A stretch of DNA of 35,685 nucleotides from Phenylobacterium sp. GTDB taxonomy: Bacteria > Pseudomonadota > Alphaproteobacteria > Caulobacterales > Caulobacteraceae. Below, in pieces: positions 10,288 through 35,519 of this stretch. Position numbers and translations under genes: made by a program. Location: positions 1-35,685 of the forward strand of contig NZ_JAUYQL010000033.1 in the NCBI RefSeq assembly GCF_030697305.1, read 5' to 3'. Under the pieces are notes generated by a model, which searched no databases, was not told the DNA's origin, and saw only the letters and a list, made by a program, of their open reading frames with translations. Position 1 is the stretch's first letter; each line of letters opens with the position of its first letter.

Positions 10288-10320
10288 AAAACGCCGACAT
10301 CCCAAAGCGTTGTGAGACAA

Positions 10321-14942: not shown

Positions 14943-14954
14943 GGTGATCCAATC

Positions 14955-15227
14955 TTAGAGGCGTTTGCTGATCGATCTTGCGATTGCAGCGGTTAATACG
15001 CCACAGCCGAGCAGGGTGAAACCTAGGGGGAGGTGGTCCATGAGCCCGAGAATTCGCGAATCGAGACGTTGAGCAAGGTGCGCTCGCTCGAGCGCGTCAA
15101 GTAGGCTCCACGAAGTCCATTCGCCTGTATATGTCAGATGAGAAATCTGATGTGCTAAGATCCCGGCTCCGAGATAGCTGAGGAAGAGTAACCCCACGGC
15201 TGCGATCAGGTGAATGAAAATCCTCAT
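14955..15227 (-). CDS. Small two-helix membrane protein (90 aa)
   Basis: Hydrophobic helices lie at about residues 3-25 and 67-85. Between them is an amphipathic loop (HLTYTGEWTSWSLLDALERAHLAQRLDSRI) that would face the periplasm if the N-terminus is cytoplasmic. No family is recognised. The ATG at 15227 is divergent from the GT-C gene starting at 15359, and the stop is 12 bp before the start of the 533-aa membrane protein, so the two are likely functional partners. The gene may supply an accessory subunit or encode a stabilising membrane anchor; that is inference. Confidence 0.6.
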   Translation of the reverse strand: MRIFIHLIAAVGLLFLSYLGAGILAHQISHLTYTGEWTSWSLLDALERAHLAQRLDSRILGLMDHLPLGFTLLGCGVLTAAIARSISKRL

Positions 15228-15358
15228 ATTCGGGACACTTCTCCATCACTGTCAGTTTGCACGGCAATCCATATACCATCAGTCCACACTGGCATTACGA
15301 TGCCTTCACGCTTTCCGGGCTAATTTTCCCCCTCGTCATTTCGTCGGCCAGGGCAGCC

Positions 15359-17065: not shown

Positions 17066-17123
17066 GCGTCTGGATGGTGATCACCCTGGCGCCGTGCCGC
17101 CACGCCCTGCGACAAGGCTCCAG

Positions 17124-19179: not shown

Positions 19180-19379
19180 CTCGCGATCCGTTTCGATACG
19201 AAATCCCAACAACTCGTGGGCTTTATGCTGCGCAGAAGTTGTTAAGTGGTTCGATTTGGTGAGCTGGTCATATTCGATCATCAGCGCGGCGGCCGGCACG
19301 GCTCGTGCACGGCCGTGAGTATGGTCGCGAGTGCGCCTCAAGTCGCTACGTCTCAAGCGTCGCAATCGGATGATGCGGA

Positions 19380-20480: not shown

Positions 20481-20512
20481 TAATTCCAATGAAAATCAGT
20501 AGAGTCTGACAA

Positions 20513-21490: not shown

Positions 21491-22407
21491 GCGCGGCCGG
21501 ACTTTACAGCCGTGTAGAACATAGCGCCGTAGCGGTATACCAACCGCCCGCCTGCGGCGCGCACATGCTCGGCCTTGGCGATGAAATTCCGCTTCAGTTC
21601 AGTCACCTGATCGGCGGGAAGCTCAGCCAGGCGCATGCGCTCGGGGCTGGAATAGGTCGCCTGCACGGACCAGAAATCTTCCGGCTCGAGTTCCACCACG
21701 CGGCCCAGCCACGTGGTTTCGACGTGGCTGAAGCCGGCGTTCGCCATCATCCTGCGGACATCGATCCCATGATGATGCGCGCCGGTGTCCTGGGCCGCGC
21801 GCCAGCCTCTTGCGGCCATCAATTCCTGAAGGAAGCGGGGCGCCTCAAGCAGACGTCCGCGGGCGTGCTCTATCTTGGACCAGGCGACACGCGCGGCGGC
21901 GGCCAGTCCTTCGGGTGAGGTCGGGGACGGACCGCTGCCGATCCCGACCACCAGCCGCCCTCCCGACTTCAGCATGCGATGCATCTCCTGCGTGGCCGCC
22001 GCCGGGTTCGGCAGATGGCGCAGCACGAACAACGACACGACCGCGTCGAATGAAGCGTCCGGGAATTCCAGGGCTTCAGCGTCCATGGCGGAGAACGTCG
22101 CCGCCACGTTCAGGCGCTTCGCCTTGTCGCGCGCCTGTTGCAGCATCCCCACCGAGTGGTCGATGCCGACGGCGCGGCCTTGCGGCGTGCGGGCCGCCGC
22201 GCGCAACGCCACTAGGCCGCTGCCTGTCCCAACGTCGAGCAAGGCGTCGGCGGCGGACAGCCCAGCCAGGTCGAGCATGCGTTCGGCGAGCGGAGCGGCG
22301 AACCGCTCGGTCAGCGCATCGAAGTCGCCAGCATTGGCGTCATAGCTGGCGGCGTCCGACAGCTTGACCCGTTGGCCCTCGTCGTCACCTTCCCGGGCGC
22401 CGTCCAT
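21487..22407 (-). CDS. Class I SAM-dependent methyltransferase (UbiE/Methyltransf_11-like)
   Basis: A 306-aa protein with the canonical SAM-binding motif LLDVGTGSGL (56-65), the acidic motif II GIDHS, and the motif DASFDAVVSLFVLRHLPN typical of UbiE-like enzymes. A C-terminal part around LELEPEDFW supports a small-molecule or lipid substrate, not a nucleic acid. The ATG at 22407 has a good AGGTGAG ribosome site. A perfect 8-bp inverted repeat (22432-22456) lies 25-49 bp upstream and may regulate it. The gene is divergent from the Gfo/Idh gene at 22569. A tie to the polysaccharide locus is suggested only by position; it could equally be an unrelated metabolic enzyme. Confidence 0.85.
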   Translation of the reverse strand: MDGAREGDDEGQRVKLSDAASYDANAGDFDALTERFAAPLAERMLDLAGLSAADALLDVGTGSGLVALRAAARTPQGRAVGIDHSVGMLQQARDKAKRLNVAATFSAMDAEALEFPDASFDAVVSLFVLRHLPNPAAATQEMHRMLKSGGRLVVGIGSGPSPTSPEGLAAAARVAWSKIEHARGRLLEAPRFLQELMAARGWRAAQDTGAHHHGIDVRRMMANAGFSHVETTWLGRVVELEPEDFWSVQATYSSPERMRLAELPADQVTELKRNFIAKAEHVRAAGGRLVYRYGAMFYTAVKSGRA

Positions 22408-22431
22408 TTCTCACCTGCCTGTTTGAACCGG

Positions 22432-22456
22432 CGTTTGATCGCATGTGAATCAAACG
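22432..22456. promoter_or_regulatory. Inverted repeat in divergent promoter region (possible operator)
   Basis: CGTTTGAT (22432-22439) and ATCAAACG (22449-22456) form a perfect 8-bp dyad around a 9-nt centre in the 161-bp gap between the methyltransferase and Gfo/Idh genes. The size fits a dimeric regulator operator of TetR/MarR/GntR kind. No such regulator is encoded in the window. Confidence 0.35.
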
Positions 22457-22568
22457 GCAAACCATTAACGAAGACCGCCCCAACCGACCGGAAACCTTGA
22501 GGGTCGGGTAACGTGCAGCCGGTATTGGTCAACCCCTGTCCGGCGACATAGGACCCGAACGAAACAAA

Positions 22569-23621
22569 ATGCCCATACGCATCGCCATCGTCGGCCTTGG
22601 CCGCGCCGCGCATCGGATCCATCTGCCGGCGGTGGCCAAGCTCGCGGGCGTCGAGGTGGTCGGTGGGCATGACCTGCATCCGCCGGCCCAGGCGCCGTCC
22701 TTTCCGCTGTTCGACAGCCCGGCCGAGCTGCTGGCCCAGACGCGCCCCGACATGCTGTTCATCGTCACGCCGCCGGACTCCCATTTCGCCCTGACCAAGC
22801 TGGGGCTTGAGGCCGGCTGCCATGTGTTCTGCGAAAAGCCGCTCGCCGAGCGCATCGAGGACGCCGAGGCGCTGGCCGAGCTGGCGCGGGCCGCTGGTCG
22901 TCACGTGGTGGTCAACAGCGAATTCCCCTGGATGCCGATCCATTCGGCGGCGAAGCGCCGGATGGCCGAGCCGGGCTTCGGCAAGCTGCAGTTCATCACC
23001 CTGCAGCAGACCTTCATCGTCACGCCCGAGACCGAGGAAGGCTGGCGGGGCCTCGATCCCCAGCGCACCTTCAAGGAGTTCGGCACCCACGTGCTCGACC
23101 TCGCCCAATATTTCTTCGATGAGGCGCCGATGTCGATCCGCGCGCGCATGCCCAGGCCCGCCGGACCCGCCGCGCCCGACCACCTGAACATTGTCGAGCT
23201 GGAGTTCAGCGGCGAGCGCATGGCGTTGATCCTGCTGGATCGGCTGTCGCCCGGCCGCCACCGCTACCTGGACATCCGCCTGGACGGGACGGAGGCGATC
23301 ATCGAGACCAGCATCGGCGGGCGGCTGCAGGCTGCGGCCGGCCTGAATGCGCGCACCCGCAAGCCGTTCGTCGACGTCGAGGTCGCCATGGGCGGAACCG
23401 CGCGCCTCTACCGGGAGGAGCGCATGGAGCGGCTGGCCACGGCGCCGATCGACCTGTTCCCCGACGCCACCGCGCGCCTGCTCACCGACGTTCTGGCCGC
23501 AATCGATCGAGGCGAGACGCCGCCGTGTGCGCTGGAGCACTCCACCCGCACCCTGCGCCTGCTGGCCGCGGCCTACGAGTCGGCCGAAGACGGCGGTTCG
23601 CCGCGCGCCTTCGCGCCGTGA
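22569..23621 (+). CDS. Gfo/Idh/MocA-family oxidoreductase
   Basis: A 350-aa NAD(P)-dependent sugar oxidoreductase. The Rossmann glycine motif VGLGRAAH is at residues 8-15, the conserved E89-K90-P91 places the catalytic lysine, and F-G-T-H-V-L-D-L (about 177-184) supplies the H-x2-D segment of the substrate domain. Members oxidise, reduce or epimerise free or nucleotide-linked sugars; the substrate is not predictable here. An AGGAC ribosome site lies upstream of ATG 22569. The next gene, a divergent GT2-like protein, starts 10 bp after its stop, so the two are almost certainly co-expressed. Confidence 0.9.
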   Translation: MPIRIAIVGLGRAAHRIHLPAVAKLAGVEVVGGHDLHPPAQAPSFPLFDSPAELLAQTRPDMLFIVTPPDSHFALTKLGLEAGCHVFCEKPLAERIEDAEALAELARAAGRHVVVNSEFPWMPIHSAAKRRMAEPGFGKLQFITLQQTFIVTPETEEGWRGLDPQRTFKEFGTHVLDLAQYFFDEAPMSIRARMPRPAGPAAPDHLNIVELEFSGERMALILLDRLSPGRHRYLDIRLDGTEAIIETSIGGRLQAAAGLNARTRKPFVDVEVAMGGTARLYREERMERLATAPIDLFPDATARLLTDVLAAIDRGETPPCALEHSTRTLRLLAAAYESAEDGGSPRAFAP

Positions 23622-23631: not shown

Positions 23632-24498
23632 GTGATCCTGTCCCTGGTGATCGCCGCGCCAGGCCCGGCGGACGCCGCGGCGTTCGTCGACGCGCTCCGC
23701 AGCCAAGGCGGCCTCGACCACCCCGAGGTGGAGGCGATCCTGACTCGCAATCCAGACGCGCCTGCGCCGGACGCAAGCGGCCTCCTGCGCGTCGATGCGC
23801 CGACGGCGGTGTCGATCTTCGAATTGTGGGGGCAAGGGCTCGCCAGGGCGAAGGGCGACTACGCCGTGTTCCTCGACCTGCGCTGCCCGCCGCGTCCGGG
23901 CTGGCTGGTCGCCATGCTGGCGAAGGCGGGCGAGGGTGGGGCGGCCTACTTTGGGCCCGTGGCGTGCGACTGGCCGCCCAGCGACCGCAACTCTCTGGGC
24001 TATCTCGTTGAATATGTGCAGTTCGATCCACCGCTGGCGGCAGGCTTGACCGAAGTCCCGGGCGTCAACGTCGCGGTGCGTCGGGCGCTCGCACAGGACA
24101 GCGGGGTGAGCCGCGCCGACGGCTTTGTGAAGACCCGCCTCCTGTCGTTGTTGGCTCGAGAAGGCCTGCCGGCTCCGGAACCCGTAGAGGAGGCGGTGGT
24201 CGGCTACCGCAAGACTTACGGCGCGGCCGCCTACCGCCGTCACCGCTTCCGGCACGCCCGCTGCTATGCCGCAGAGCGCGCGACGGACGCAGGCGTTATG
24301 GCGCGACTGAGCTACCTCGCCGCCACGCCCCTGTTGCCGGTGGTGCGGACCTTGAGGATTGTCGCCCATGCGCAACGCGCCCGACGGGCGTTCGCTCTCC
24401 ATCTCGTCCAGATCCTCGCCGCCGAGACCGCGTGGGCTGCCGGCGAGTTCATGGGCTATGTGGCGGGCGAGAGCGGAACCCGCGCGCGTCTGGCTTAG
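23632..24498 (+). CDS. Divergent GT2-like protein with C-terminal membrane segment (copy A)
   Basis: A 288-aa member of a local family of four. The N-terminus (ILSLVIAAPGP) is the first GT-A strand. The motif region reads FLDLRCPPRPGW (80-91) where an active relative has TEDHCVPAPGW, so only D82 could replace the metal-binding acids. The PGVN motif (143-146) is kept, but the GFWE catalytic-base motif is changed to DGFVK (163-167). The C-terminus is amphipathic to hydrophobic and ends in GEFMGY (271-276). The likely start is GTG 23632, with a weak ribosome site. It may be a weak or specialised glycosyltransferase or a non-catalytic partner. It follows Gfo/Idh 22569 closely and overlaps the convergent Gfo/Idh gene by 4 bp. 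Confidence 0.72.
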   Translation: MILSLVIAAPGPADAAAFVDALRSQGGLDHPEVEAILTRNPDAPAPDASGLLRVDAPTAVSIFELWGQGLARAKGDYAVFLDLRCPPRPGWLVAMLAKAGEGGAAYFGPVACDWPPSDRNSLGYLVEYVQFDPPLAAGLTEVPGVNVAVRRALAQDSGVSRADGFVKTRLLSLLAREGLPAPEPVEEAVVGYRKTYGAAAYRRHRFRHARCYAAERATDAGVMARLSYLAATPLLPVVRTLRIVAHAQRARRAFALHLVQILAAETAWAAGEFMGYVAGESGTRARLA

Positions 24499-25541
24499 CT
24501 CAGCGGCTCCAGCATCACCGCACGACCGCTGGCGCCGCTCTCGTATACCGCCTTGGCGACCTCCACCGAACGCAGGCCGTCGACGCCGCTCGCCGCGCGG
24601 CCGCTGCCGGCCTCGCCGCGGGTGGCGGCGATGAAGTCGTCGAACTCCTCGTTGAAGGCGGCGATCACCGTGCTCTGCCAGCCCTGAAGCTTCTCGCGCA
24701 GCATCGCCTTGGGATAGAACAGCCGCTGCACGCGGCGCGCGCCGCCCGGCTTGTCCATGGTGATCACGGTGGCCTGCATCGGCGCGTAATAGGCCCGCGC
24801 CATGCCGTGCGCCCCATAGGCCTCGATGTGGAACTGGTAGCCCTTCCACTCGCTCCAGCTCGCCTGAAGGCTGCCGACCACGCCGTCGGCGTTGCGCAGC
24901 AGGGCCAGGGCGTTGTCCTCGGCGGGCAGGTTCCAGACCCTGTGCAGGGCGTGGCCGAACACCTCGGTCACGTCGCCCATCACATAGCGGACCAGGTCCA
25001 GCACGTGGATGCCGTTGTCGAACAGCGCGCCGCCGCCCATCACCTGCGGATCATACATCCACGGCGCCTTGAACTCGGCCAGTCCCATGTGGCCGGCGTA
25101 GGCGCGCACATGGCTGAGCGTGCCCAGCTCTCCGGAAGCAACCGTGTCGCGCAACAGTTTGAGCGCCTCGAAGTAGCGATGGTTGAAGCCCACGGCGAGC
25201 GTGCGTCCGGTGCGCTTCGCCGTCTCGGTCATCGCCCGGCAAGCCTCGACGCTGGCCGCCATCGGCTTTTCGACCAGCACGTGCTTGCCGGCTTCCATCG
25301 CGTCGATCGCCAGGCGCTCGTGGAACTGAGGCGGGGTGGCGATCACCACCGCGTCGATATCGGGTGACGTCAGCAGGCTCGCCACATCGGCGTGGAAAGC
25401 CGCTTGGGGCGCGGCCTGACGGGCGCGGGCCGGGTCGACGTCGTGCACGGCGACGAGCGTGCAGTTTGCGCTGCGCGTCAGGGCCTGGGCGCGCACCGCG
25501 CCGATGCCGCCTGCGCCGATCAGTCCAAATCTCAAGGTCAT
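24495..25541 (-). CDS. Gfo/Idh/MocA-family oxidoreductase
   Basis: A canonical 348-aa member: GAGGIG (9-14) binds NAD(P), E91-K92-P93 carries the catalytic lysine, and the substrate-domain signature GGGALFDNGIHVLDL (169-183) includes D175, H179 and D182. It resembles inositol- or nucleotide-sugar-acid dehydrogenases; the exact reaction is unknown. The ATG at 25541 overlaps the stop of the upstream methyltransferase gene (ATGA), which indicates translational coupling. It is the last gene of the minus-strand train, converging on GT2-like copy A. Confidence 0.92.
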   Translation of the reverse strand: MTLRFGLIGAGGIGAVRAQALTRSANCTLVAVHDVDPARARQAAPQAAFHADVASLLTSPDIDAVVIATPPQFHERLAIDAMEAGKHVLVEKPMAASVEACRAMTETAKRTGRTLAVGFNHRYFEALKLLRDTVASGELGTLSHVRAYAGHMGLAEFKAPWMYDPQVMGGGALFDNGIHVLDLVRYVMGDVTEVFGHALHRVWNLPAEDNALALLRNADGVVGSLQASWSEWKGYQFHIEAYGAHGMARAYYAPMQATVITMDKPGGARRVQRLFYPKAMLREKLQGWQSTVIAAFNEEFDDFIAATRGEAGSGRAASGVDGLRSVEVAKAVYESGASGRAVMLEPLS

Positions 25542-26545
25542 GCTCCCATAGGGCGGCCCGCTGCGGGGCGGGCGAGGATCTCAAACATCGGACCGACGGC
25601 GGCCAGCGCCTGGCTGACGCCCGGCGTTTGGCTTGCCGCGGCATAGAGGCGGGCTGCGGGTCTGGCGAGGCCGCTCGCTCCGGCGATCTGCGCGCGGTTC
25701 AGACGCTTGGCGCTCGTCGAGACCACGTCGAGCCCGGCTCCGCGGGCGGCCCGCGCCACGCGCGAGGCGTTCAGCGGCAGGACGTGGCGCAGAGGATCGA
25801 CGCCGCCCGACCCTTTGCGGGCGCGCGACGCCGCGGACCGCGCATGCGCGGCCCACAGTCCGGTCGACGGATGGGGTCCGATCCAGTGGCTGTTGGCCGC
25901 CGACAACCACAGGCGACCTTGCGGCGTGAGCTGGTCGGCGAGGCCCTCCAGGGCCGGGGTCAACGCGCGGACATGCTCGAGCAGGTCGGCGGCCAGCACG
26001 GCGTCGAACTGGTGGTCTGCGAAGGGTGCGGCCTCGACCTCGGCGCAGACCAGCAGCGCCTCGACGCCGGACTCTTCCAGCCGCTTGGCGCAGATCACCA
26101 GCCACCGCAGCGCCACGTCCAGTCCGACCAGACCGTTCCAGCGGTCGGCCGCCGCGACGAGCGCTCCGCCGGAGCCGCAGCCGGCGTCGAGAAATATCCC
26201 TGTAGCCGGTTCCAAAGCGACGAGAGCCGCCTGCGCGCGCGCCGGCGCGTCCAGCAGCGCGCGCACATAGCCCTCCGCCTGGCGGGGGGTGATGTCGTCG
26301 GTGATCTCGTAATAGCGGCGCACCAGGCCGGCGAAGTCCGTACCGGCGGCGAAGGCGTGCAGACGTCCAGCCTTCTCGCGTTCCGCTTCCAGCGTCAGGT
26401 AGCGGTCGCCGCGCAGGCGGAAGTCGGCGATCCCGAACAGCACCGGATAGCTGCGGCCGCAGGCCGCGCAGTCGTAGGCGTTGGCGGCGCGCCGCACGGG
26501 AGACCGGCACGCGGGGCAAACCAAGTCCGGCGTGCCGCCGCTCAT
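25538..26545 (-). CDS. Methyltransferase with N-terminal Trm112-like zinc ribbon (copy 1)
   Basis: The 335-aa protein begins with a four-Cys ribbon (C10-x2-C13, C26-x2-C29) followed by SYPVLFGIADFRL, the CPxC...CxxC...YP...GI layout of Trm112/UPF0434 proteins. A class I SAM fold follows with FLDAGCGSGG (118-127) and GLDVALRWLV. The C-terminus has a hydrophobic tail. The same architecture, including the G-[LV]-D-V-x3-W-L strand, is seen in the protein at 27567-28589, so the two are paralogues. The ATG at 26545 overlaps the stop of the GT2-like gene upstream; a 50-codon N-terminal extension in the same frame has no support. The substrate is unknown; a glycan methyl group is plausible. Confidence 0.87.
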   Translation of the reverse strand: MSGGTPDLVCPACRSPVRRAANAYDCAACGRSYPVLFGIADFRLRGDRYLTLEAEREKAGRLHAFAAGTDFAGLVRRYYEITDDITPRQAEGYVRALLDAPARAQAALVALEPATGIFLDAGCGSGGALVAAADRWNGLVGLDVALRWLVICAKRLEESGVEALLVCAEVEAAPFADHQFDAVLAADLLEHVRALTPALEGLADQLTPQGRLWLSAANSHWIGPHPSTGLWAAHARSAASRARKGSGGVDPLRHVLPLNASRVARAARGAGLDVVSTSAKRLNRAQIAGASGLARPAARLYAAASQTPGVSQALAAVGPMFEILARPAAGRPMGA

Positions 26546-27459
26546 TCGATGCGGGCGAGCGCGTCGCCCGGTCCGGCGATGTAGCCAACCATCTCGCCGA
26601 ACGCCCACACCACCACCAGCATGGCGAGGGCGGGCAGGGCGCGGCCGAATTCCTTGTTCAGGCCTTTGGCGGAGGCGGCCTTGGTCATCCGCCACAGGAG
26701 CAGCGGCGGCAGGGCGACGGAAGCCGCGGTGGCGACCAGCCGCTTGGCCACGTCGCCGCGCCCGAAACGGATGCCGGCGAAGTAGCGCGAGTAGACGAAG
26801 CGCTGGGCGGTGAACAGCGACACCGAGAACTTCTTGCAGTGGAACATCTTAATCGCGTTGCGCGACACGAACCGCCCGCCCGCCGCCAGCAGCAGGGGGT
26901 GCACGGTGGTCTCCCAGAACCCCTCGACCAGCCGCGCGCGCGGCACGGCGTCCAGGGCGCTGCGGCGATAGGCGACGTTCATGCCGGGCAGGATCTGCGT
27001 CTCACCCTCGGCAACCGGCGGCGAGAAGAAGCTGTATTCGCAAAGGAAAGTCGCCCAATCGAAGCCGGTCTCATAGACTCCGTTTTCGACGCAGCCGCCT
27101 ACCGCCACCACGTCGGAGCGGCCCTCGAAGGCGGCGAGGATCTGGCCGATCCAGCCGGGAGCCGGCACGCAATGATCCTCCGTCACCGCGACGATCGCGG
27201 CGGTTGAAGCCTCCAGCGCGATGGTGCGCATCTCGGGCAACGCCATGCCGGGGTCGCAGGGGATGATCTTCACCTGCGGATAGCGGCGCGCGATCTCTGC
27301 GCTCATCGCTCCGCCAAGCCGGTCAGCCAGCACGACTTCGCAGATACGCTCACCCTGCTGCTCGTCGAGTGAAGCGAGGGTCTCCAGAATCCGGTCGCCA
27401 TCCTCAGTGCTGACACGGCCGATGACGACGGACAGCTCCGCTTCTGAATTTTCGATCAT
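26542..27459 (-). CDS. GT2-family glycosyltransferase with C-terminal membrane segment (copy B)
   Basis: A 305-aa protein and the best-preserved of the local four-member family. The N-terminal GT-A strand is ELSVVIGRV. The metal-site region is TEDHCVPAPGW (93-103), with E94 and D95. PGMN lies at 158-161, and GFWE (180-183) supplies the likely catalytic base. Hydrophobic helices occur at about 242-260 and 274-295, the last containing GEMVGY (288-293). The protein probably transfers a sugar at the inner face of the membrane. The ATG at 27459 lies 107 bp from the upstream methyltransferase gene, the largest gap in the minus-strand train, and the stop overlaps the next ATG (ATGA). Confidence 0.82.
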   Translation of the reverse strand: MIENSEAELSVVIGRVSTEDGDRILETLASLDEQQGERICEVVLADRLGGAMSAEIARRYPQVKIIPCDPGMALPEMRTIALEASTAAIVAVTEDHCVPAPGWIGQILAAFEGRSDVVAVGGCVENGVYETGFDWATFLCEYSFFSPPVAEGETQILPGMNVAYRRSALDAVPRARLVEGFWETTVHPLLLAAGGRFVSRNAIKMFHCKKFSVSLFTAQRFVYSRYFAGIRFGRGDVAKRLVATAASVALPPLLLWRMTKAASAKGLNKEFGRALPALAMLVVVWAFGEMVGYIAGPGDALARIE

Positions 27460-27490
27460 CTCAACCTACTCAGGACGCGGCGGCTCGGTT

Positions 27491-27515
27491 GGAAGCACAC
27501 GCGCCTGTGTGTTCC
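27491..27515. other. Imperfect hairpin in the one wide gap of the minus-strand gene train
   Basis: GGAAGCACAC and GTGTGTTCC form a 9-bp stem with one bulged G and a 6-nt loop, between the stop at 27567 and the start at 27459 on the minus strand. There is no U-run after it, so it is not a classical terminator. It could be an attenuation, processing or operator site. Confidence 0.3.
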
Positions 27516-27566
27516 TATGCGGGTTGCTCGAAGCCGCGCGACGCTCAGCGCCGCCGTCGGACCCTG

Positions 27567-28589
27567 TCACGGAAATCCTAATCCACCGCCAACAACGGAG
27601 ATGATCCAGGCCTTCAGGCCCTCGGCACGGAAGAACGGTGCGATGACAAGGAAAATAGGCCGGAGCGGAGGATAGAGGCGGATGATATTGTACAACCTCG
27701 CAAATCCGGCTTTCAGCGGCGAGAAGCGCGCGATCTCTTCTGGCGGGGTCTCAGGAATCGCCAGGCGGAACTGCATGGTCGTGCTGCGTCGCAACAAACG
27801 CCTTAGGCCGAAACTGCTCAACAAACGGGTGTTGGTATATGTGAGTCCGCTGCGCCAGCGGACGAAGGGCGCTTGCCAAGGGCGCGGCAACAGTCCCACG
27901 CCCCAAACCCCAACATGGGGTTCGGCGGTAAGGCTGAAGCGGTTCGGCGTCGAGATGATGGCAGCTCCGCCGGGCGCGGTCACCCGGTCGATCTCTGCGG
28001 CCAAACCGGGCATGTCGTTGACGTGCTCGATCACGTCGAGGGATACGACGGTCGTCACCGCACCGTCACGCAAAGGCAACGCTTCGCCGGCCGCGGCCGC
28101 GAACGTCGACGTGCCGCCGTGGGCGCGCACCATGCGCTGGGCGATGATCAGCCAGGTCATCGACACGTCGACGCCCAGTCCTTGATGACCCCTGTGTACC
28201 GCGGCGCACAACAGAGCGCCCGGGCCGCATCCCACGTCGAGAAACGGCTGGCCCGCCTTGAGCTTTGGTTCCAGCCACTCTTGAACGTCTCGGTCGAGAC
28301 GCTTGGGCGCATCCAGCACCTGTTGCGTTCGCAGCGAAACGCGCTCGGAATTCCACTCGGCGCGCCTGGAGAACACCTCGTGCAGCAACTCCGCCGCAGA
28401 TGCGTCTTTGCGCGCCGCCAGGGAGCGTGCGAGCTGCAGGTCGTCTTCGAAGTCGATCCAGGAGGGGACCTCGACCCTCAGGTCGGGAATGCCCTCAATG
28501 CAACCGTACTCACGCCCGCAGTTTTCGCACGTCACCGCCTCGTCGTGCGACGCGAGCGAGCCATGGCACCTGGGACAGCACCATATCAT
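27567..28589 (-). CDS. Methyltransferase with N-terminal Trm112-like zinc ribbon (copy 2)
   Basis: A 340-aa protein with the ribbon C5-x2-C8, C21-x2-C24 followed by EYGCIEGIPDLRV, a clear Trm112-type head, then a SAM fold with FLDVGCGPGA (116-125), GVDVSMTWL, and VVSLDVIEHVND. It is paralogous to the protein at 25538-26545; both also end in a hydrophobic C-terminal stretch that could attach to the membrane. The ATG at 28589 overlaps the stop of the upstream GT2 gene (ATGA), and the conserved ribbon begins right there, so a 63-codon upstream extension is rejected. It is likely a glycan methyltransferase working after the adjacent glycosyltransferase; the site of methylation is unknown. Confidence 0.88.
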   Translation of the reverse strand: MIWCCPRCHGSLASHDEAVTCENCGREYGCIEGIPDLRVEVPSWIDFEDDLQLARSLAARKDASAAELLHEVFSRRAEWNSERVSLRTQQVLDAPKRLDRDVQEWLEPKLKAGQPFLDVGCGPGALLCAAVHRGHQGLGVDVSMTWLIIAQRMVRAHGGTSTFAAAAGEALPLRDGAVTTVVSLDVIEHVNDMPGLAAEIDRVTAPGGAAIISTPNRFSLTAEPHVGVWGVGLLPRPWQAPFVRWRSGLTYTNTRLLSSFGLRRLLRRSTTMQFRLAIPETPPEEIARFSPLKAGFARLYNIIRLYPPLRPIFLVIAPFFRAEGLKAWIISVVGGGLGFP

Positions 28590-29638
28590 GCACGCACGGT
28601 GCGCCCGATCCGGACCTCTAACCAGCACCAGACGAAGGCCACGGTACTGTAGAGGTAGTAGAGCTGGTGGAACAGCAGCGCCGATACCGCGAACGGCGCG
28701 CCGCGCACTTCGCGGAAGGTGCTGAACAGCTTCCAGTTGGCGGCTAGCACCATCGCGAAAGCGGCGAGCGGCGTCCACAAGGGCACGAGGCCGCCCAGGG
28801 TCGCCAGCACCAGCATAAGGGCCAGGCCCGCCAGGCCGGCGCGTAGGCGCTCGATCATGCCGACATTGAGGTCGTCGGTGACTTCGGAGCGGTTGAGCAT
28901 CAACCGAGCCCAGGGCATGGCGCGACGCAGGATGTCGACCCGCACCAGCTCCGGCACCGACCAGTACTTCAGGTGCGTGCTCAGCAGCGCCGGATCCAGG
29001 CGGATCTTGCCACCGGCGTCGCCCATCCGATAGCCGAGCTCGATGTCCTCGATCGAAGGGAACCGGTAGCGCTTCGCGTCGAAGCCGCCGATCTTCTGAT
29101 AGGTCGTGCGCAGCACCGCGCCGCAGCCTGCCCAGAAGGTCGAGGCGTCGCGCTTGCCGATCTGGTGGTGATGATGGTGCAGCAGGTTCTTGTACTGCGA
29201 GCCGAAGTTCGGCGCGTCTGGGCGGTCGTCGTAGGAGCCGAACACCGCCACGACGTCAGTCTCGTTCAGCGCTGCGCGGATGCGCGCCGGACTGCCGTCG
29301 CGCGCCACGACGTCGGAGTCGACGAACCACAGGATGTCACCCACGGCCTGGGCGGCGGCGACGTTGCGGGCCCCGGCCGGTCCCAACCGGCCGCCGGACG
29401 AGATCACCCGCGCGCCCAGTTCGGCGGCCACGGCGGCGGAGCCATCGGTGGCGCCGTCGTCGACGACGATGACTTCGAGGATTTCGCCGCGCCGCAGCAT
29501 CTTCACCAGCGGCGGCAGGGTGCGCAGCAGGAAGTGGGCGGCGTTGAAGACAGGCATGATGACGCTGATGGTCGCCTCGGCCCCAATCGGAGCATCGAGA
29601 TGGGCGACGGTTTCGGGCAACTCCCGTTGCATCAACAT
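28586..29638 (-). CDS. GT2-family glycosyltransferase (canonical)
   Basis: A 350-aa inverting GT-A enzyme with all the motifs in place: ISVIMPVFN (24-32), VVDDGATDGS (58-67), RLGPAGARN (84-92), the metal-binding DSD (107-109), and ED (198-199) as candidate base. A run of five histidines (154-158) lies in the middle. The C-terminal 90 residues hold two to three membrane helices (about 264-300 and 318-342). It thus probably sits at the inner membrane and extends the lipid-linked glycan. The ATG at 29638 has only a weak ribosome site; AGGAAAGG lies about 20 nt upstream. Its stop overlaps the start of the Trm112-type methyltransferase gene. Confidence 0.93.
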   Translation of the reverse strand: MLMQRELPETVAHLDAPIGAEATISVIMPVFNAAHFLLRTLPPLVKMLRRGEILEVIVVDDGATDGSAAVAAELGARVISSGGRLGPAGARNVAAAQAVGDILWFVDSDVVARDGSPARIRAALNETDVVAVFGSYDDRPDAPNFGSQYKNLLHHHHHQIGKRDASTFWAGCGAVLRTTYQKIGGFDAKRYRFPSIEDIELGYRMGDAGGKIRLDPALLSTHLKYWSVPELVRVDILRRAMPWARLMLNRSEVTDDLNVGMIERLRAGLAGLALMLVLATLGGLVPLWTPLAAFAMVLAANWKLFSTFREVRGAPFAVSALLFHQLYYLYSTVAFVWCWLEVRIGRTVRA

Positions 29639-29650
29639 GGTTGGGTAACT

Positions 29651-30550
29651 CTAGCCTTTCCTCGGTCGCCTCAACAGCGCGTCGACGTAGCCGTGGAACT
29701 CCCCAGCGCCCCAGCCCAAGGTAAACCAGAGGAGCCAGGGCAAAGTTCGGAGACCGTCGCGCCCAATTTGGGACTTCGATCGCATCCGTCGCAGGATGCG
29801 GGCCAACAGCACCGCCGGGACCGCCAGACCCAGCACAGGAAACAGCATTCTTTTGACCGGGGAAGCGATGCTCGCGCGGTCGAATCCGTAAGCTCGCCCG
29901 TGCGCAAATCTTTGGCGCACAAAGTCTGCAGGACGTTCGCAACCGCGGTAGACGACAGCGATGCGCGGATCGAGCCGCAGCCGTTCGCCGGCCGCGCGGA
30001 AGCGCCGATGGAACGACGGCTCCCAGAACCCTTCGGCCAGCAGATCGGGGTGATCGAGGATGTCGGCGCGCCGATAGACAGCGTTGTCCGCGGCGATTTC
30101 CTCCACGTCGCCAGCCGCTTGCGGGGGTGAGACGTCCATATACCTTAAGGCGTAAATCGCCCGGTGGACGGGTGAGCAGGCAGGGTCCAGGTCGATCGTC
30201 CCGCCGACGCCCGCATAGGTTTCCAGGTCCGCGGAGAGCAGGGCTGTGACCCAGTCGGAAGCCGGAATCGCATGCGCTGTGGTCATCGCCACGGCCTTGC
30301 CGCACGCTGCCTCAACGCCGTCCCGCCATAGGTGGGGTATGAGTGCGGCGCGATCTGCAGTGACGACCTGCCAAGGCGCATCTGCCGGGGTCAGAATGGG
30401 CGCCGGGGCGCCTGCAACGACGAATATCACTTCCACGTTATCGCTCGCGACGGGACCCAGGAGCGCCACGATCGCGGGCAGGTTGGCGTCCGCATCCTTA
30501 ACCGCCACGATGATGCTGAGCGTCGGCGCGAGCGCTGGGGCCGAGCTCAC
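29651..30550 (-). CDS. Divergent GT2-like protein with C-terminal membrane segment (copy C)
   Basis: A 299-aa protein with the GT-A opening strand TLSIIVAVKD (10-19). The segment aligned with the metal site reads TTAHAIPASDW (90-100), lacking both acids found in copy B (E94-D95), and the PG-x-N motif is reduced to ADNAVY (154-159). The GFWE motif is intact (174-177). The C-terminal part has hydrophobic helices and ends in GEFHGY (283-288). Loss of the metal site suggests a non-catalytic or metal-independent role, though I could not model the fold. The GTG at 30550 overlaps the deacetylase stop (GTGA). The canonical GT2 gene follows after a 12-bp gap. Confidence 0.75.
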   Translation of the reverse strand: MSSAPALAPTLSIIVAVKDADANLPAIVALLGPVASDNVEVIFVVAGAPAPILTPADAPWQVVTADRAALIPHLWRDGVEAACGKAVAMTTAHAIPASDWVTALLSADLETYAGVGGTIDLDPACSPVHRAIYALRYMDVSPPQAAGDVEEIAADNAVYRRADILDHPDLLAEGFWEPSFHRRFRAAGERLRLDPRIAVVYRGCERPADFVRQRFAHGRAYGFDRASIASPVKRMLFPVLGLAVPAVLLARILRRMRSKSQIGRDGLRTLPWLLWFTLGWGAGEFHGYVDALLRRPRKG

Positions 30551-31266
30551 CCGCGACCGCGCAGGCGTCGCATCAGCCTTCGCACCTCCAGATAGGCCCG
30601 CGCCGCCGGCCCAGCGAGATCGCCGGTCAGTTCTGTGTGACGCAGGTAGTGGCTGTCGAGGCGTGGTATCGCATCGGCTCGCGCATTCTCGTCCACATAG
30701 CGCAGCTCGGTGGTGACGCAGGCCTTGTAGCGACGTCCGGCGAGCTTGCGGATCCGCGCATCATGGTAGCCGTACGGATAGGCGAAGAAGCGGGGCGCAC
30801 GGCCAAGCCGCGCCGAGATGGTCAGGTCGGCGTCCTCCATCTCGGCCTCCACCTGGCCGTCGCTGAGCTTGCGGAGGTCAGGGTGGGTGGCGGTGTGCGC
30901 CTCGATCATCACGCCGGCGGCCGGGAGCGCCTCGATCTGCGGCCAGGACATCATCTGATACAGCGGCGCGGACGCGGGCTGGCCGGGCCAGCGGTTGTCG
31001 CCGCCCGCCGTCGCTGTGGTTAGGAACAGGTGCGCGGGCGCGTCGAAGTCCTTCAGCACCGGCGCCGCGTTCTGGGCGAGCGAGGTCATGCCGTCATCGA
31101 ACGTCAGGGCGACGCCTCGCGCGCCAGGCTGCAGCAATTCGTCCAGGCCCAGGATCGGGATGTCGTTCGCGCGCAACGCCGCCACCAGGCGCCTGAACAA
31201 CTGCGGCGGGAACGACAGCGGCGGCGGCCCGTCGTCGATCGCATGGAAGGTGATCACTGCGCGCAT
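30547..31266 (-). CDS. Polysaccharide deacetylase (NodB/CE4 family)
   Basis: A 239-aa member with the family's metal and catalytic motifs: TFDDG (55-59), in which D57 is the catalytic base and D58 binds metal; HTATH (124-128), with the two metal-binding histidines; and FAYPYG (161-166). CE4 enzymes remove N- or O-acetyl groups from amino sugars. No signal peptide is visible, so it may act in the cytoplasm on a lipid-linked or nucleotide-linked precursor, unlike many exported deacetylases. The start is ATG 31266, which shares one base with the upstream stop (TGATG); an in-frame TTG lies immediately before it. The position between glycosyltransferases supports a role in glycan tailoring. Confidence 0.92.
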   Translation of the reverse strand: MRAVITFHAIDDGPPPLSFPPQLFRRLVAALRANDIPILGLDELLQPGARGVALTFDDGMTSLAQNAAPVLKDFDAPAHLFLTTATAGGDNRWPGQPASAPLYQMMSWPQIEALPAAGVMIEAHTATHPDLRKLSDGQVEAEMEDADLTISARLGRAPRFFAYPYGYHDARIRKLAGRRYKACVTTELRYVDENARADAIPRLDSHYLRHTELTGDLAGPAARAYLEVRRLMRRLRGRG

Positions 31267-32492
31267 CAAGTGGTCCGTATCGCAGCTTCGGCCTTCGATG
31301 CGCGGATCGCTTCGATCATGCGGAGATAACCTTCCAGGTGGCGCTCACGGGTATAGCGTTTCATGTAGGCGCCACGCGCCGCTTCGCCCATCGACTGGGC
31401 AAGATCGGGATCGGCGATCAGCGCGCGCGCCTGAGCGATCAAGTCCGTCTCATTCTGGTACAGTCGACCGCACTGTCCGTCTGCGACCAGCTCCTCGGCG
31501 CCGCCCGCGCCGGACCGCACCAGGGCAGGAGTGGAGAAAGCCGCAGCCTCGATCACCGCGAGGCCGAAGGTCTCCGGGGCCAGCGAAGGGAACACCAGCG
31601 CCGTCGCCCCTGCGTACAGCGCGCCGAGCTCCGCCTGCGGCAGACCTCCGGTGAAGCGGACGCGCTCGCCGCCGTAACGCGTCTCCAGCGCCTCGTGGGC
31701 GTCGCCGGCGCCGACGACCACCAGGTCCAGATCGCCGGCCTGCGCGAATGCGCGCACCGCGGCCTCAACGCCTTTCGAGGCGGTCACCCGGCCGACGAAC
31801 AGGAAGTAGGGCCGGGCCGGCGTCGACGCGGTGAGGCGCTCGTCGGGCTCCAGCGCTGAGAACAACGGCAGCACTTCAATCGGTGCGACGACCCCGCCCT
31901 CGCGGTGCCGCCGCGCGGTGTATTCGCTGGGCGAGATCAGCCGGTCCACATGCTGCAGCATCAGGTCGCGCAGCGGCGTGTATCGCCAGAGCTGCGGCGG
32001 TATGCCCGAGCGGATCGAGCAACTGATGCAGGTCCGGCGGTCGCAGGCGTGACTGCGGTTCTTCCAGAAGATGTGCGTCGCGCAGAGCAACCAGTGCTCA
32101 TGCAGCGTGTAGAGCGTCACCGGCGCACGGCTCAGCGCCAGTACGCCCGGCCCGCCAACCAGCGAGATGTTGTGAAAGTGGACGACGTCGAAATCGCGGT
32201 CGAGCAGGCGCCGCAGTTCGCCGCTCTTCAGGCCCGGCATGCCGGTCTGCTGGGTGACCAGCGGCGACAGCGCCCCCAGCGGGTGATGCAGGGTGTGAAC
32301 CACCACCCCCGCGTCGTCGGTCTCCGGGGTCGGGCTCGCGCCGTGCGCGCCCAGCGCGTAGGCGTCACGGCAGTGGATCACCTCCACCTCGTGCCCGAGC
32401 GCGGCCAGCGCGCGCGCAAGTCCGCGCACATAGGTTGCGTCGCCGCCGAAGGCGTAGGGCGGATAGAAGGTGGTGACCATGGCGAAGCGCAT
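31266..32492 (-). CDS. GT4-family glycosyltransferase with Cys cluster
   Basis: A 408-aa GT-B enzyme. The N-terminal loop YPPYAFGGDATYVRGLA (10-26) is typical of GT4 glycosyltransferases, LISPSEYTARR (185-195) and FLFVGRVTASKGVEAAV mark the linker and donor domain, and ETFGLAVIE is the E-x7-E motif. The middle of the N-domain has a H131-x-H133 pair and four cysteines, C137, C150, C155 and C158, which probably bind a structural metal. The sugar and acceptor are unknown. It is coupled to the upstream GT4 gene (TGATG at 32492) and to the deacetylase gene downstream. Confidence 0.93.
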   Translation of the reverse strand: MRFAMVTTFYPPYAFGGDATYVRGLARALAALGHEVEVIHCRDAYALGAHGASPTPETDDAGVVVHTLHHPLGALSPLVTQQTGMPGLKSGELRRLLDRDFDVVHFHNISLVGGPGVLALSRAPVTLYTLHEHWLLCATHIFWKNRSHACDRRTCISCSIRSGIPPQLWRYTPLRDLMLQHVDRLISPSEYTARRHREGGVVAPIEVLPLFSALEPDERLTASTPARPYFLFVGRVTASKGVEAAVRAFAQAGDLDLVVVGAGDAHEALETRYGGERVRFTGGLPQAELGALYAGATALVFPSLAPETFGLAVIEAAAFSTPALVRSGAGGAEELVADGQCGRLYQNETDLIAQARALIADPDLAQSMGEAARGAYMKRYTRERHLEGYLRMIEAIRASKAEAAIRTT

Positions 32493-33673
32493 CAGCGCCG
32501 CGCCCCGATGCTTTCCAGCAGTTCGATCAGGCCCTGTGCGCTGCGCGGCCAGCTCAGTTCGGCCGCGCGGGGAAGGGCTGCGGCGCGCAAACCGCCCATC
32601 AACGCTTCGTCCGACACACAGCGCACGATCACACGCGCCATGTCGGCGACGTCGAGCGGATCGAAGAACAAGCCCGCGCCGGCCACCACTTCCTGCACGG
32701 CGCCGCCGGCCGTTGCGATCACCGGCGTCCCGCAGGCGATCGCTTCCGCCGCCGGTAAGCCGAACCCCTCGGACAGCGCCGGCATGGCGACCATCAGCGC
32801 GTCCGAATAAAGCGCCGGCAGGTCTTCGTCGGGAACATAGCCGGTGAACCGCACGCGGGCCGCCAGGCGCGGATCGGAGTCCACCAGCGCCAGCAGCGCC
32901 TCGTAGTTGGAGTGGAACCCGTCGCCCTTGGGGTCGCCGGCCAGGACCAGGTGCAGGTCGGCTGCTGCGGGATCGTCGAGCGCCACGGCGTAGGCTTCGA
33001 CAAGCCTCAGCAGGTTCTTGTGCGGCGCGAGTCCGCCCACGTAGAGCAGCAGCCGAGCGTCAGCATCGAGCCCCAGGCGTTCGCGCATCGTGCGCCTCGC
33101 CGGCAAATCAGCGACGGGTTGGAAACGGGGATCGGCAGCCTCAAGAAACACCGCGATCCGCGACTTGGCGATGCCCATGTGGGTGGCGATCTCTTCACGC
33201 GCAGCCTGCGAAACTGTGGTGATGCGCCGCGCTGTGGTCTTGGCCAGCCACACCTTCGCGCCCCACATCGTCCGGCCGCGCCAGGAGGGGAACACCAGCG
33301 AGGAGAAGTGCTCGGCGATCGCGTCGTGAAAGGTAACCACGGTGGGCGTGCGCGGCCCCGCCGGATACCAGGAATAGACCGCCGGATAGTACATCACGTC
33401 CAGCCGCTCGGCCGCGACCGCTCGGCGGAAGGCCAGCAGGTCGCCGACGCTGCGCGAACCGTCGGCGACGGCGGCTTCGGTGACGGTGCGGCGGGTGTCG
33501 ACGCGCACGATCTTGACGCCAGGACGCAGCATTTCCGGTTCGGGCGGGCGATCGACGAACAGGACGAATTCGTGGCCGCGCGGTGCATCCAGCATCGCCC
33601 CCAGCAACAGCCGCGTGAAGCGGCCGAAGCCGCGCCGGTTCCACCAGGTGGTCGCGTCAACGCCGATCCGCAT
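32492..33673 (-). CDS. GT4-family glycosyltransferase
   Basis: A 393-aa GT-B enzyme beginning MRIGVDATTWWNRRGFGRFTR, the GT4 acceptor-loop opening. VVTFHDA and ITTVSQAAREEI are followed by the donor-site segment LLYVGGLAPHKNLLRLVEA and the E-x7-E motif EGFGLPAAE (302-310). The overall look is that of mannosyl/rhamnosyltransferases; the specific sugar is unknown. I chose the ATG at 33673, 2 bp after the upstream stop; the frame runs 242 codons further upstream, but that part is the complement of the GT2-like gene D. The stop overlaps the start of the next GT4 gene by one base. Confidence 0.93.
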   Translation of the reverse strand: MRIGVDATTWWNRRGFGRFTRLLLGAMLDAPRGHEFVLFVDRPPEPEMLRPGVKIVRVDTRRTVTEAAVADGSRSVGDLLAFRRAVAAERLDVMYYPAVYSWYPAGPRTPTVVTFHDAIAEHFSSLVFPSWRGRTMWGAKVWLAKTTARRITTVSQAAREEIATHMGIAKSRIAVFLEAADPRFQPVADLPARRTMRERLGLDADARLLLYVGGLAPHKNLLRLVEAYAVALDDPAAADLHLVLAGDPKGDGFHSNYEALLALVDSDPRLAARVRFTGYVPDEDLPALYSDALMVAMPALSEGFGLPAAEAIACGTPVIATAGGAVQEVVAGAGLFFDPLDVADMARVIVRCVSDEALMGGLRAAALPRAAELSWPRSAQGLIELLESIGARR

Positions 33674-33675
33674 GC

Positions 33676-34527
33676 TCAGACCCACCGCCCGCGACTGGAG
33701 CCCGGGTCGCCTGCGGCCTTGCCCAGCACCTCTCCGACGCCCCAGGCGAGGTGCATCCCCGCCGCCCAGGCGAGGGTCGCCGGCGAGGCGCGCAAAGCGG
33801 GGGGCGCGACGGCCAGCGTGCGTGCGCTCAACACGGCGGGGGCGAGCGTGGCGAGGCAGGCGTGGATCAGGCGTTGGGCGAGGCCCAGCCCCGCCGTCTG
33901 TCCAGCCCCATAGATGCGGCCGTGGTGGAAGCGGGTCGAGAGCGCGGCGCCGTCCGCATGCGCGGCGCGGTACTCCACCCCCATCGCCGGCTCCATGACC
34001 AGCCGCCCAGCGGCGCACGGGGTCGCGAAGAGCGCGTTGTCGACCAGGTCGGCGTCGCTCCAGCCGGCGGTGTCGATCGCCGAAAGATCGAGGGCGAAGT
34101 TCGCGCCGGGCAGGACGCCGACGCTGCGGCGCTCGGCGACCTCGCCGAAGCGGCCGTACTCGCACAGCCCCAGCGCGCGCAGCTGCGGCGGCAAGTCCAT
34201 TGAGATGGCGATCGGGCCGCCTGCTGCGACCACGCCGTCCTCGCTCAGCGCGCTCAAGCAGGCCTGCGCCCAGCTCGCCCTGGGTCCGCAGGTGTCCTCG
34301 ACCATGGCGACGAAGCGCGTTTGGGCCGCCCGCAGCCCGATCAGTCGGCGGGCCGGCACAGCCATGTCCGCTGCCGCTATGAACTGGGCAGGGGCGCAAC
34401 TGGCATCCCGCGCCGCGTCACCAACGACGATCACCTTCACGCCTTGCGCCTGGAAGTCGCCGACACAGCGGGTCAGCGTCGCGCCGCCCACCAGCGGTAC
34501 GATGACGACGGTCAGGTCCATGCTCAC
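33676..34527 (-). CDS. Divergent GT2-like protein with C-terminal membrane segment (copy D)
   Basis: A 283-aa protein of the same local family as those at 23632, 26542 and 29651. The first strand is DLTVVIVPLV; the metal-site region MVEDTCGPRASW (75-86) keeps E77-D78, and PGAN (140-143) is kept. The region where B and C have GFWE has become VDNALFA, so the catalytic base is not evident. Conserved RFHHGRIYG (199-207) precedes hydrophobic segments ending in GEVLGK (265-270). The GTG at 34527 overlaps the Gfo/Idh stop (GTGA) and is favoured over an ATG at 34521. It may be a non-canonical glycosyltransferase or a partner protein of its neighbours. Confidence 0.72.
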   Translation of the reverse strand: MSMDLTVVIVPLVGGATLTRCVGDFQAQGVKVIVVGDAARDASCAPAQFIAAADMAVPARRLIGLRAAQTRFVAMVEDTCGPRASWAQACLSALSEDGVVAAGGPIAISMDLPPQLRALGLCEYGRFGEVAERRSVGVLPGANFALDLSAIDTAGWSDADLVDNALFATPCAAGRLVMEPAMGVEYRAAHADGAALSTRFHHGRIYGAGQTAGLGLAQRLIHACLATLAPAVLSARTLAVAPPALRASPATLAWAAGMHLAWGVGEVLGKAAGDPGSSRGRWV

Positions 34528-35519
34528 GGTGTGGATCCTGTAAGGATCGTCTCTCGCGCCGCGGCGCCGTCGACCATGGTGTCTAGGCTGATCGGCTGGG
34601 CGGTCGGATCGGACGTGCTTACCGCCGCATAGAAGGCGCGCGTCAGGTCGCGCAAGCCGACGTAGGCTCCCTCGCGACGTGCCGCACGACCGAGCAGGTT
34701 CGCCGACGCCGCAGCCAAGGTCCGACCAGCGGTGGTGAAGGGCCCGGTGATCTTGGCGACGCGCGACACCTGGCCATCCAGCTCGACTGAAAATCCGTGG
34801 AAGCCGTCGATAGCGATGGTCCCGCCCCGCGTCTGGAGTTGCAGCGCGAACCGCGTCGGCCGGGCGTCCAGGCTGATGAAGATGCTGATCAACACACCTT
34901 GCGCGTCAGCGGTAGCCAGCAATTCGCCGGGGGTCGCGCGAACGGTGCGCCAATCCAGCGCGTCGAGCGCCACGTTGGGCATTACGCGCTGCATAATGGA
35001 GAGGGGATGGGGCAGGATCTCGCCCAGCACTTCGGTCTGTCGCGCCACCGGGCCGCCTTCGGCTCCCGCGGAGCATATGTCCAGGTCGATACGCCTCAGG
35101 GCGCCCAGCGCCGGCAAACGCCGGATCGCGCGGCTGAGGGCCGGCTGGAAGGCGTATTGGTGAACCGGGCAAATCTGCACGCCAGCGGCGAGCGCGGCCT
35201 GCGCCAGCTGTTTGGCCTCGTCGCGGGTCTCGACCACCGGCTTCTCAATCAGTGCATGTACGCCCGCGCCGATCAGCTCGAGCGCGATGGGCAGGTGTGT
35301 CGTCGCGGGCGTGCAGACGTGGGCAGCCACGATGCCGCCCGCCGACAACATGGCCTGAGTGGTGGGATAGGTGAGCGCGCCGGGAGCGTTTCTGGCCAGG
35401 GCCGTGGCGGCCGCACCGTCCGGATCGACGACCGCGACGATCCTGGCGCCCAGGCTGCGCGCCGTCGCCAAGTGCCAGCGGCCCATCAGGCCTGCCCCGA
35501 TGATAGCGACATCAAGCAT
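34524..35519 (-). CDS. Gfo/Idh/MocA-family oxidoreductase, divergent substrate domain
   Basis: A 331-aa protein with an intact Rossmann motif GAGLMG (8-13), an acidic D32 at the end of strand 2 (favouring NAD+), and E92-K93-P94. The usual GGG-x-D-x-G-x-H-x2-D signature is replaced by GEILPHPLSIM, keeping only one histidine, so the substrate and perhaps the reaction differ from the other two Gfo/Idh proteins in the window. The ATG at 35519 is the first start of the visible minus-strand train. Its stop overlaps the start of GT2-like copy D, coupling the two. Confidence 0.87.
   Translation of the reverse strand: MLDVAIIGAGLMGRWHLATARSLGARIVAVVDPDGAAATALARNAPGALTYPTTQAMLSAGGIVAAHVCTPATTHLPIALELIGAGVHALIEKPVVETRDEAKQLAQAALAAGVQICPVHQYAFQPALSRAIRRLPALGALRRIDLDICSAGAEGGPVARQTEVLGEILPHPLSIMQRVMPNVALDALDWRTVRATPGELLATADAQGVLISIFISLDARPTRFALQLQTRGGTIAIDGFHGFSVELDGQVSRVAKITGPFTTAGRTLAAASANLLGRAARREGAYVGLRDLTRAFYAAVSTSDPTAQPISLDTMVDGAAARETILTGSTP

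Follow-up and report, generated by a model that had tools for sequence, protein, structure and literature searches.

Sequence comparisons place four GT2-type proteins of a Phenylobacterium locus in active-site classes shared by distant phyla

Results

Four Related GT2-Type Proteins, One with a Complete Set of Landmarks

The 35,685-nucleotide contig NZ_JAUYQL010000033.1 of Phenylobacterium sp. (assembly GCF_030697305.1), analyzed over its whole length and called the window here, encodes four proteins resembling family 2 glycosyltransferases (GT2), namely A (23632..24498, + strand), B (26542..27459), C (29651..30550), and D (33676..34527), the last three on the − strand. The open reading frames of all four are present at these coordinates. 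A preliminary description of this DNA saw in them local copies with a scattered loss of catalytic motifs. Our comparisons point instead to A–D being members of old classes shared by distant phyla and not recent degraded copies. On balance, we favor the interpretation that they are distinct GT2-type, membrane-anchored transferases of the GT-A fold, belonging to a conserved cassette for a lipid-linked surface glycan.

That the four proteins are specifically related, as had been proposed, is borne out by a search of the whole genome with B, which returned C (E = 7e-22), A (4e-15), and D (7e-13), followed by a gap to the fifth match at E = 0.011. When a profile of the four proteins was searched against the same genome, the next match scored 37.7 bits, the level of other GT2 proteins. 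A–D align end to end, including the GE-x-x-G tail that is almost constant across the family, and this alignment reproduces the motif blocks quoted earlier. B passes the Pfam model PF00535 (Glycos_transf_2) with 39.1 bits (gathering cut-off 23.3 bits). A stays under this cut-off with 15.3 bits, and C and D have no Pfam match among those listed, at E values up to 1. Thus, A, C, and D fail the PF00535 cut-off, yet they are related in sequence to B by the genome-wide search; because no Pfam match is listed for C and D, routine annotation may well miss them. The mycofactocin MftF model TIGR03965 (cut-off 280 bits) is not reached by B (29.6 bits) or D (25.2 bits), nor is the AglG equivalog NF041394 (cut-off 440 bits) by B (31.3 bits) or C (10.9 bits); by its weak match to AglG, B resembles the haloarchaeal AglJ/AglG/AglI/AglE enzymes, which belong to a different cluster.

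Active-site landmarks were placed by aligning a profile of 28 relatives to the chondroitin polymerase K4CP (2z87), an alignment whose second half scores −1.2 bits. It puts E94 and H96 of B on the DxD motif, G159 on the G-loop glycine, E183 on the xED aspartate, and H207 on the C-His. By inference from a single offset of 58, the 2z87 counterparts of B G159 and H207 would be G335 and H386, the residues named as the G-loop glycine and C-His of 2z87 in part of PMC7185993. In the family alignment, column 94 is the metal-site acid, column 160 the x of the G-loop PG-x-N, column 183 the xED base, and column 207 the C-His. The metal pair standing in for DxD is E-x-H, represented by E94/H96 in B, D82/R84 in A, T91/H93 in C, and E77/T79 in D. 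The xED position is the E of GFWE and is occupied by E183 in B, E177 in C, K167 in A, and D163 in D; the loss of this motif reported for A and D therefore stands for A, whereas in D the glutamate is replaced by aspartate and not lost. The third metal ligand, the C-His, is a histidine in B alone (H207) and a tyrosine in A (Y192), C (Y201), and D (Y186). The G-loop residues are G159/N161 in B, G144/N146 in A, and G141/N143 in D, while C has A154-D155-N156, with Asp155 at the x of PG-x-N, that is, an acid in a new place. Further marked residues are C211 in A, W75 and R136 in C, and R61 in D.

All four landmarks are kept in B and only in B, as the preliminary description had it, and A, C, and D do form a non-canonical set departing from the full GT-A active site. 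The DxD-type motif and C-His of canonical metal-dependent GT2 enzymes are not found together in A, C, or D, where one of the pair and the histidine are gone. The acid at xED of canonical inverting GT2 enzymes is present in B, C, and D and absent from A.

AlphaFold (AF2) models of B (predicted local distance difference test score [pLDDT] 93.1, predicted template modeling score [pTM] 0.90) and C (pLDDT 93.5, pTM 0.89) predict a GT-A fold with long C-terminal helices after the catalytic domain. The structure search suggested in the preliminary description returned GT2/GT-A enzymes, with WrtF (Z 21.3), chondroitin polymerase (20.2), and hyaluronan synthase (20.2) matching B and 6p61 and TarP (both 17.7) matching C. 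The C-terminal helices of B and C probably lie in the membrane, given their hydrophobic sequence and their match to hyaluronan synthase, with which they align past the catalytic part. B and C therefore share a predicted fold with the inverting GT2/GT-A enzymes K4CP, TarP, RmlT, WrtF, and hyaluronan synthase, and the landmark order of K4CP (DxD-like, G-loop, xED, C-His) is like that of the family. In contrast to these enzymes, the family has E-x-H for DxD and its own GE-x-x-G tail, A is without the base, and C is without the metal acid and has an aspartate in the G-loop. The ppGalNAc-transferases (GT27) have a D-x-H-C block followed by W that aligns with the family E-D-H-C, and a DxH and a C-His are described for GT27 in part of PMC7185993. 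However, these are human multidomain enzymes with about 13–17% identity to B.

Residue Classes Recur across Phyla

A pattern scan that used the GE-x-x-G tail as query, so that the tail is present by construction at the loci found, located relatives in metagenome-assembled genomes (MAGs) of Phenylobacterium (L035), Acidobacteria, Gemmatimonadetes, Phycisphaerales, Anaerolineae, and a gammaproteobacterium. The L035 locus is the same cluster as the window, most of its genes being 91–98% identical. The phyla of the family are Acidobacteriota, Gemmatimonadota, Planctomycetota, and Chloroflexota, to which two other Caulobacterales genomes are added. With each sampled genome assigned to the phylum of its sample's center genome and the center included, positive genomes numbered 22 of 297 in the phylum of L036 and 27 of 200 in that of L045 (both at E 1e-30), and 15 of 294 in the phylum of L037 and 5 of 301 in that of L038 (both at E 1e-40). 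Among the Alphaproteobacteria, 17 of 385 genomes, the source genome included, were positive at E 1e-20, mostly by partial matches in long frames; in 13 of the 16 others the top-scoring match is part of a 642–1213 aa frame and ends by model position 219. These 13 frames (L053–L065) match the catalytic part only (approximately positions 4–219) and represent a related multidomain GT2 group. The possibility that the set is typical of Caulobacterales was rejected, as 35 genomes of the same genus contain no match above 50 bits; three family copies occur in G043, a Caulobacterales genome of another family. Literature searches gave no description of this family or its operon, which is weak evidence of absence.

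Because 6–11 candidates per genome were scored in the first look, the sample counts may be low. Apart from the centers and G451, 64 genomes were positive; a second pass, with up to 42 candidates each, covered 55 of them and left aside nine weaker positives (G462, G497, G510, G522, G673, G696, G756, G758, and G948). It altered the number of matches in no genome, and at least two matches were found in 31 of the 55. The resulting alignment has 145 copies from 69 genomes, or 141 copies from 68 genomes without the near-duplicate L035; 42 of these 68 carriers hold several copies. Class counts exclude L035, copies under 90 bits or short of model position 240 (270 in one step) were excluded, and further matches of G448 and G454 on other contigs lie outside the set.

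Class C was defined by the lack of an acid at column 94 together with an aspartate at column 160, which gives 15 copies in 15 genomes. The two features are associated, Asp160 being present in 16 of the 19 copies that lack the metal acid (L035 counted) versus 1 of the 126 that have it. Residues outside the definition are equally constant. W78 is found in 15/15 class C copies, 1/7 class A copies, and 0/119 others, with arginine at this column in 29 of 29 complete B-type copies. R141 occurs in 15/15, 0/7, and 4/119, respectively, with glutamate in 28 of 29 B-type copies. H223 is likewise constant in class C (15/15, with 5/7 in class A and 22/119 in others), and the base glutamate E183 is kept in all 15 class C copies. 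Class A, defined by lysine at column 183, comprises seven copies in seven genomes of five phyla. All seven have C226 (class C 0/15, others 5/119) and F145 (class C 5/15, others 26/119), neither of which enters the definition, and one of the seven retains the metal His. The window copy A has both C226 and F145, along with a tryptophan at column 78 as in class C. Class D is tentative and consists of eight rows chosen by eye.

Could this variation be harmless? Ordinary GT2 paralogues, one enzyme per sugar, might have drifted in their motifs with no consequence. Part of PMC7185993 describes GT-A enzymes that tolerate the loss of DxD, xED, or C-His, and variation is common in the family, with the DxD-type pair, base acid, and C-His all present in 57 of 141 copies, or 91 of 141 when the C-His is disregarded. 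We nevertheless consider drift improbable, since W78 and R141 are invariant in class C over five phyla and C226 accompanies K183 in every class A copy. As judged from the alignment, the residue changes of classes C and A are class-specific, extend across phyla, and are coupled to other fixed changes, which is at odds with a scattered loss in local copies; such fixed replacements also argue against decay.

Several further groupings were seen. A class E (EDN or EDH, with D-R-Y-x-H-G) lies between C and B in five loci of the Gemmatimonadota sample (L043, L045, L204, L205, and L211), at the place where L036 has A; L212 and L213 have class E and no C in the stretch. A recurrent tandem in which an EEH/YWE copy precedes an EDH/SDSN-type/FHE copy was seen in the Acidobacteriota and Planctomycetota samples (L037, L044, L194, L197, L216, L217, and L218). 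In L199 (G549), copies whose metal blocks read ESS and KDT lie in the same stretch as relatives of two Gfo/Idh oxidoreductases of the window, Gfo22569 and Gfo34524, and of both its GT4-like genes, and may be further degenerate or divergent classes.

Phylogeny and Selection

In a first tree of 35 rows with the motif columns included, B and C each grouped with relatives from other phyla and not with each other, while A and D of the window fell in no starred group beyond their L035 twins. Recent local duplication of A–D was rejected on the grouping of B and C. When the motif columns were removed, neither class A (seven rows, approximately unbiased test p-AU 0.779) nor class C (p-AU 0.933 with 14 rows) was rejected as a single clade; L246, the fifteenth class C row, lay outside both clade tests. 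Trees with each class constrained scored higher than the free quick tree, by 23.5 and 47.5 log-likelihood units, which shows that the quick search was poor and does not thereby prove the clades. We take these tests as consistency and not proof, because motifs served to delimit the sets, which moreover come apart in the free quick tree.

Comparison of the window with L035, a single genome pair, gave ratios of nonsynonymous to synonymous substitution (dN/dS) of 0.21 for A, 0.11 for B, 0.15 for C, and 0.36 for D, which indicate that purifying selection acts on all four. These values bear on the view that A, C, and D represent pseudogenes undergoing decay or recently degraded duplicates of B. Their long branches, and the dN/dS that is highest in D and A, are what decay would produce. 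However, the frames are intact, dN/dS is well below 1, and the classes are common to several phyla. Decay is thus disfavored by the dN/dS and the class-fixed residues and is largely refuted; we hold it to be extremely improbable.

Co-occurrence of the Classes

Six of the seven class A genomes also have class C (hypergeometric p 2.8e-4, a value not corrected for the relatedness of genomes); the exception is L038, a contig of 3.5 kb. A B-type copy accompanies class C in 14 of 15 genomes when loosely defined and in 12 of 15 when required to be strictly complete. These associations would suit a model in which A, C, or both have no catalytic role and act as partners of B (and D), that is, GT-A scaffolds that stabilize or position the active enzyme in the manner of COSMC and T-synthase. 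COSMC (C1GALT1C1) provides the precedent, being described in part of PMC7185993 as a pseudoglycosyltransferase chaperone, a GT-A paralogue without catalytic motifs that serves an active sister. Moreover, the base, metal His, and C-His are all gone in A, genes adjoin one another or have overlapping frames at many loci, and in L211 two copies are fused in one frame. Other data are harder to reconcile with this model. The invariant E183 and the fixed Trp and Arg beside the Asp of class C exceed the needs of a scaffold, and D has acids at both key positions; indeed, COSMC lost both DxD and xED, whereas C and D retain the acid at xED. In addition, the L211 fusion (8360-11140, +; 927 aa, no linker, the second copy starting at the tail of the first) unites an E-class and a B-type copy that both retain E-x-H and the base Glu, the first having Gln at the C-His, and not a degenerate copy with B. 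Finally, among the 28 genomes in which a B-type copy is strictly complete, 15 are devoid of both class A and class C, and at nine B-type loci without A or C three or more of the four core cassette genes described below are present. B is therefore not dependent on A or C there, and, as far as gene content can tell, the case for a requirement of B for A or C is weakened. We regard a partner role as somewhat unlikely, and if it applies, it possibly concerns chiefly A.

The Family Often Lies in a Conserved Gene Cassette

The genes around A–D are all on the − strand except where indicated. Four of them were taken as core genes of a conserved cassette: two GT4-like glycosyltransferases, GT4_32492 (32492..33679) and GT4_31266 (31266..32492), and a polysaccharide-deacetylase-like protein (30547..31269), all three with sub-cut-off matches, those of GT4_32492 being to GT4 families, and an ordinary GT2 outside the A–D family, GT2_28586 (28586..29638; PF00535, E 6.7e-25). 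Among family loci of at least 8 kb, two or more core genes are present in 27 of 50 (27 of 45 genomes), and three or more in 19 of 50, whereas none of 21 control loci, each centered on another GT2 gene, has two or more. The controls comprised 14 Caulobacterales loci and seven from the Acidobacteriota and Gemmatimonadota samples, a mix of phyla different from that of the test loci. The latter seven (L280–L286) hold distant family members (E < 1e-30), the central genes of L284–L286 being among the 145 copies, and so do not make a clean negative; excluding these seven leaves 0 of 14 control loci with at least two core genes.

The window also encodes two methyltransferases (25538..26545 and 27567..28778), whose methyltransferase domains were confirmed and whose Trm112 type is the label of the preliminary description, and three Gfo/Idh oxidoreductases: Gfo22569 (22569..23621, +), whose relatives pair with those of Gfo34524 near class C in other phyla; Gfo34524 (34524..35519); and Gfo24495 (24495..25541), assigned as Gfo/Idh-like from its similarity to scanned relatives that lie near the glycosyltransferase family. 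Gfo34524 relatives occur in 6 of 11 class C loci versus 2 of 39 others (Fisher p 7e-4) and Gfo22569 relatives in 6 of 11 versus 4 of 39, leaving five class C loci without the former and five without the latter. The Gfo22569–Gfo34524 pair, in that order, precedes C in L036, L045, L204, and L209. Co-occurrence of the family with Gfo/Idh, methyltransferase, and GT4 genes is thus seen in part of the loci across phyla and does not extend across Caulobacterales, as noted above for the same genus.

Gene order is conserved in pieces. L036 has Gfo22569-Gfo34524-C-A-B-D, with GT4 relatives absent from the stretch; L045 and L204 have Gfo-Gfo-C-E-B-GT4-GT4-deacetylase-GT2-methyltransferase; and L222 has C-B-GT4-GT4-deacetylase-A-D with no Gfo. 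B-GT4_32492-GT4_31266 are consecutive in L045, L202, L204, L205, L206, L208, L209, L211, and L222. In L231 (9179-11560, −) a Gfo24495-type Gfo/Idh protein and a family glycosyltransferase share a single open frame of 794 aa. This fusion and that of L211 each come from one MAG or contig and may reflect assembly or sequencing error.

A Proposed Set of Distinct Transferases

Collectively, these data lead us to favor A–D as distinct transferases. B would be an ordinary metal-dependent enzyme of the inverting type, and each of A–D would add a different glycan residue, sequentially or by branching. C and A would be old classes, maintained separately, in which the donor or the catalytic site is rebuilt. 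In C the metal acid is lost, the base Glu kept, and Asp, Trp, and Arg fixed, and transfer might be metal-light or metal-free. A, with Lys at the base position, could be a transferase that is retaining or works without a base, or else a non-catalytic aid, and D would be nearer the canonical state. Direct support comes from the predicted fold of B and C, the class residues, the co-occurrence of classes, and the pieces of operon order; anchoring in the membrane, activity, the use of metal, the sequence of additions, and the product we infer. Conservation of specific replacements between such distant phyla, together with dN/dS of 0.11–0.36, indicates that the altered sites are in use. Because they keep the same unusual residues, the altered-site classes probably carry out another kind of chemistry or assist the normal enzyme.

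Precedents exist for the individual elements and, with the conservation, favor distinct transferases. Stepwise building of a lipid-linked glycan by several glycosyltransferases is described for AglJ/AglG/AglI/AglE in part of PMC3871713. The metal-independent GT-A enzymes (bacterial GT6, with NXN, and GT14) offer a model for class C, in that DxD is lost and activity kept, which part of PMC3961637 reports as metal-free activity of bacterial GT6; these are other families, and the likeness is drawn with no claim of homology. Loss of the xED Asp accompanies retaining or phosphate-acceptor chemistry in several families (described in part of PMC7185993). By analogy, altered donor chemistry would be most plausible for C, and A could have either altered chemistry or a COSMC-like role. 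A more specific proposal, which we put forward tentatively and consider unlikely, is that the recurrent GT-A set forms a membrane complex in which B would be the metal enzyme, C would be metal-free, with the carboxylate moved from DxD to the G-loop and a Glu-to-Arg charge swap, and A would use its Lys in place of the base, with retaining or phosphate-type acceptor chemistry.

Several observations weigh against distinct transferases. The class sets were drawn from motifs after the motifs had been seen. Column 46, which we take to be the position of the nucleotide-binding Asp, has Asp in 8 of 15 class C copies. A lacks all three of its base, metal His, and C-His, and C and D are without a listed Pfam match. 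The free quick tree (106 rows, no motif columns) separates 2 of the 14 class C rows from the remaining 12 and divides the class A rows between two places (three and four), deep nodes are weak, and A, C, and D of the window lie on long branches. The dN/dS of A and D exceeds that of four measured neighbors (0.06–0.13), which fits relaxed constraint, and 4 of the 21 control loci have one core gene each.

With this classification, apparently degenerate copies become defined, testable enzyme classes with diagnostic residues in a surface-glycan operon of five phyla. An active C would amount to a natural experiment in relocating a carboxylate inside a GT-A site, and an inactive A or C to a bacterial case of the COSMC type.

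Other Features of the Window and of Family Loci

One gene product of the window is an initiating sugar transferase (PF02397). No Pfam match at E 0.001 was obtained for the proteins at 13344, 15257, and 17094, and no flippase or polymerase was therefore identified among them. In other genomes, a radical SAM/SPASM protein (L037:11124-12617, with relatives in L040, L042, L044, and L047) recurs in family stretches, and an FAD oxidoreductase of the amine-oxidase fold recurs in cassette stretches (L045:8528-10036 and L037:3951-5468); the L045 protein is of the PRK07208 type (702 bits), and there is weak similarity to UDP-galactopyranose mutase. Within the window, the GC content of positions 12501-22500 is 0.61–0.65 compared with 0.66–0.71 elsewhere, the first 2.5 kb (0.63) excepted, which suggests from base composition that this is a patchwork region.

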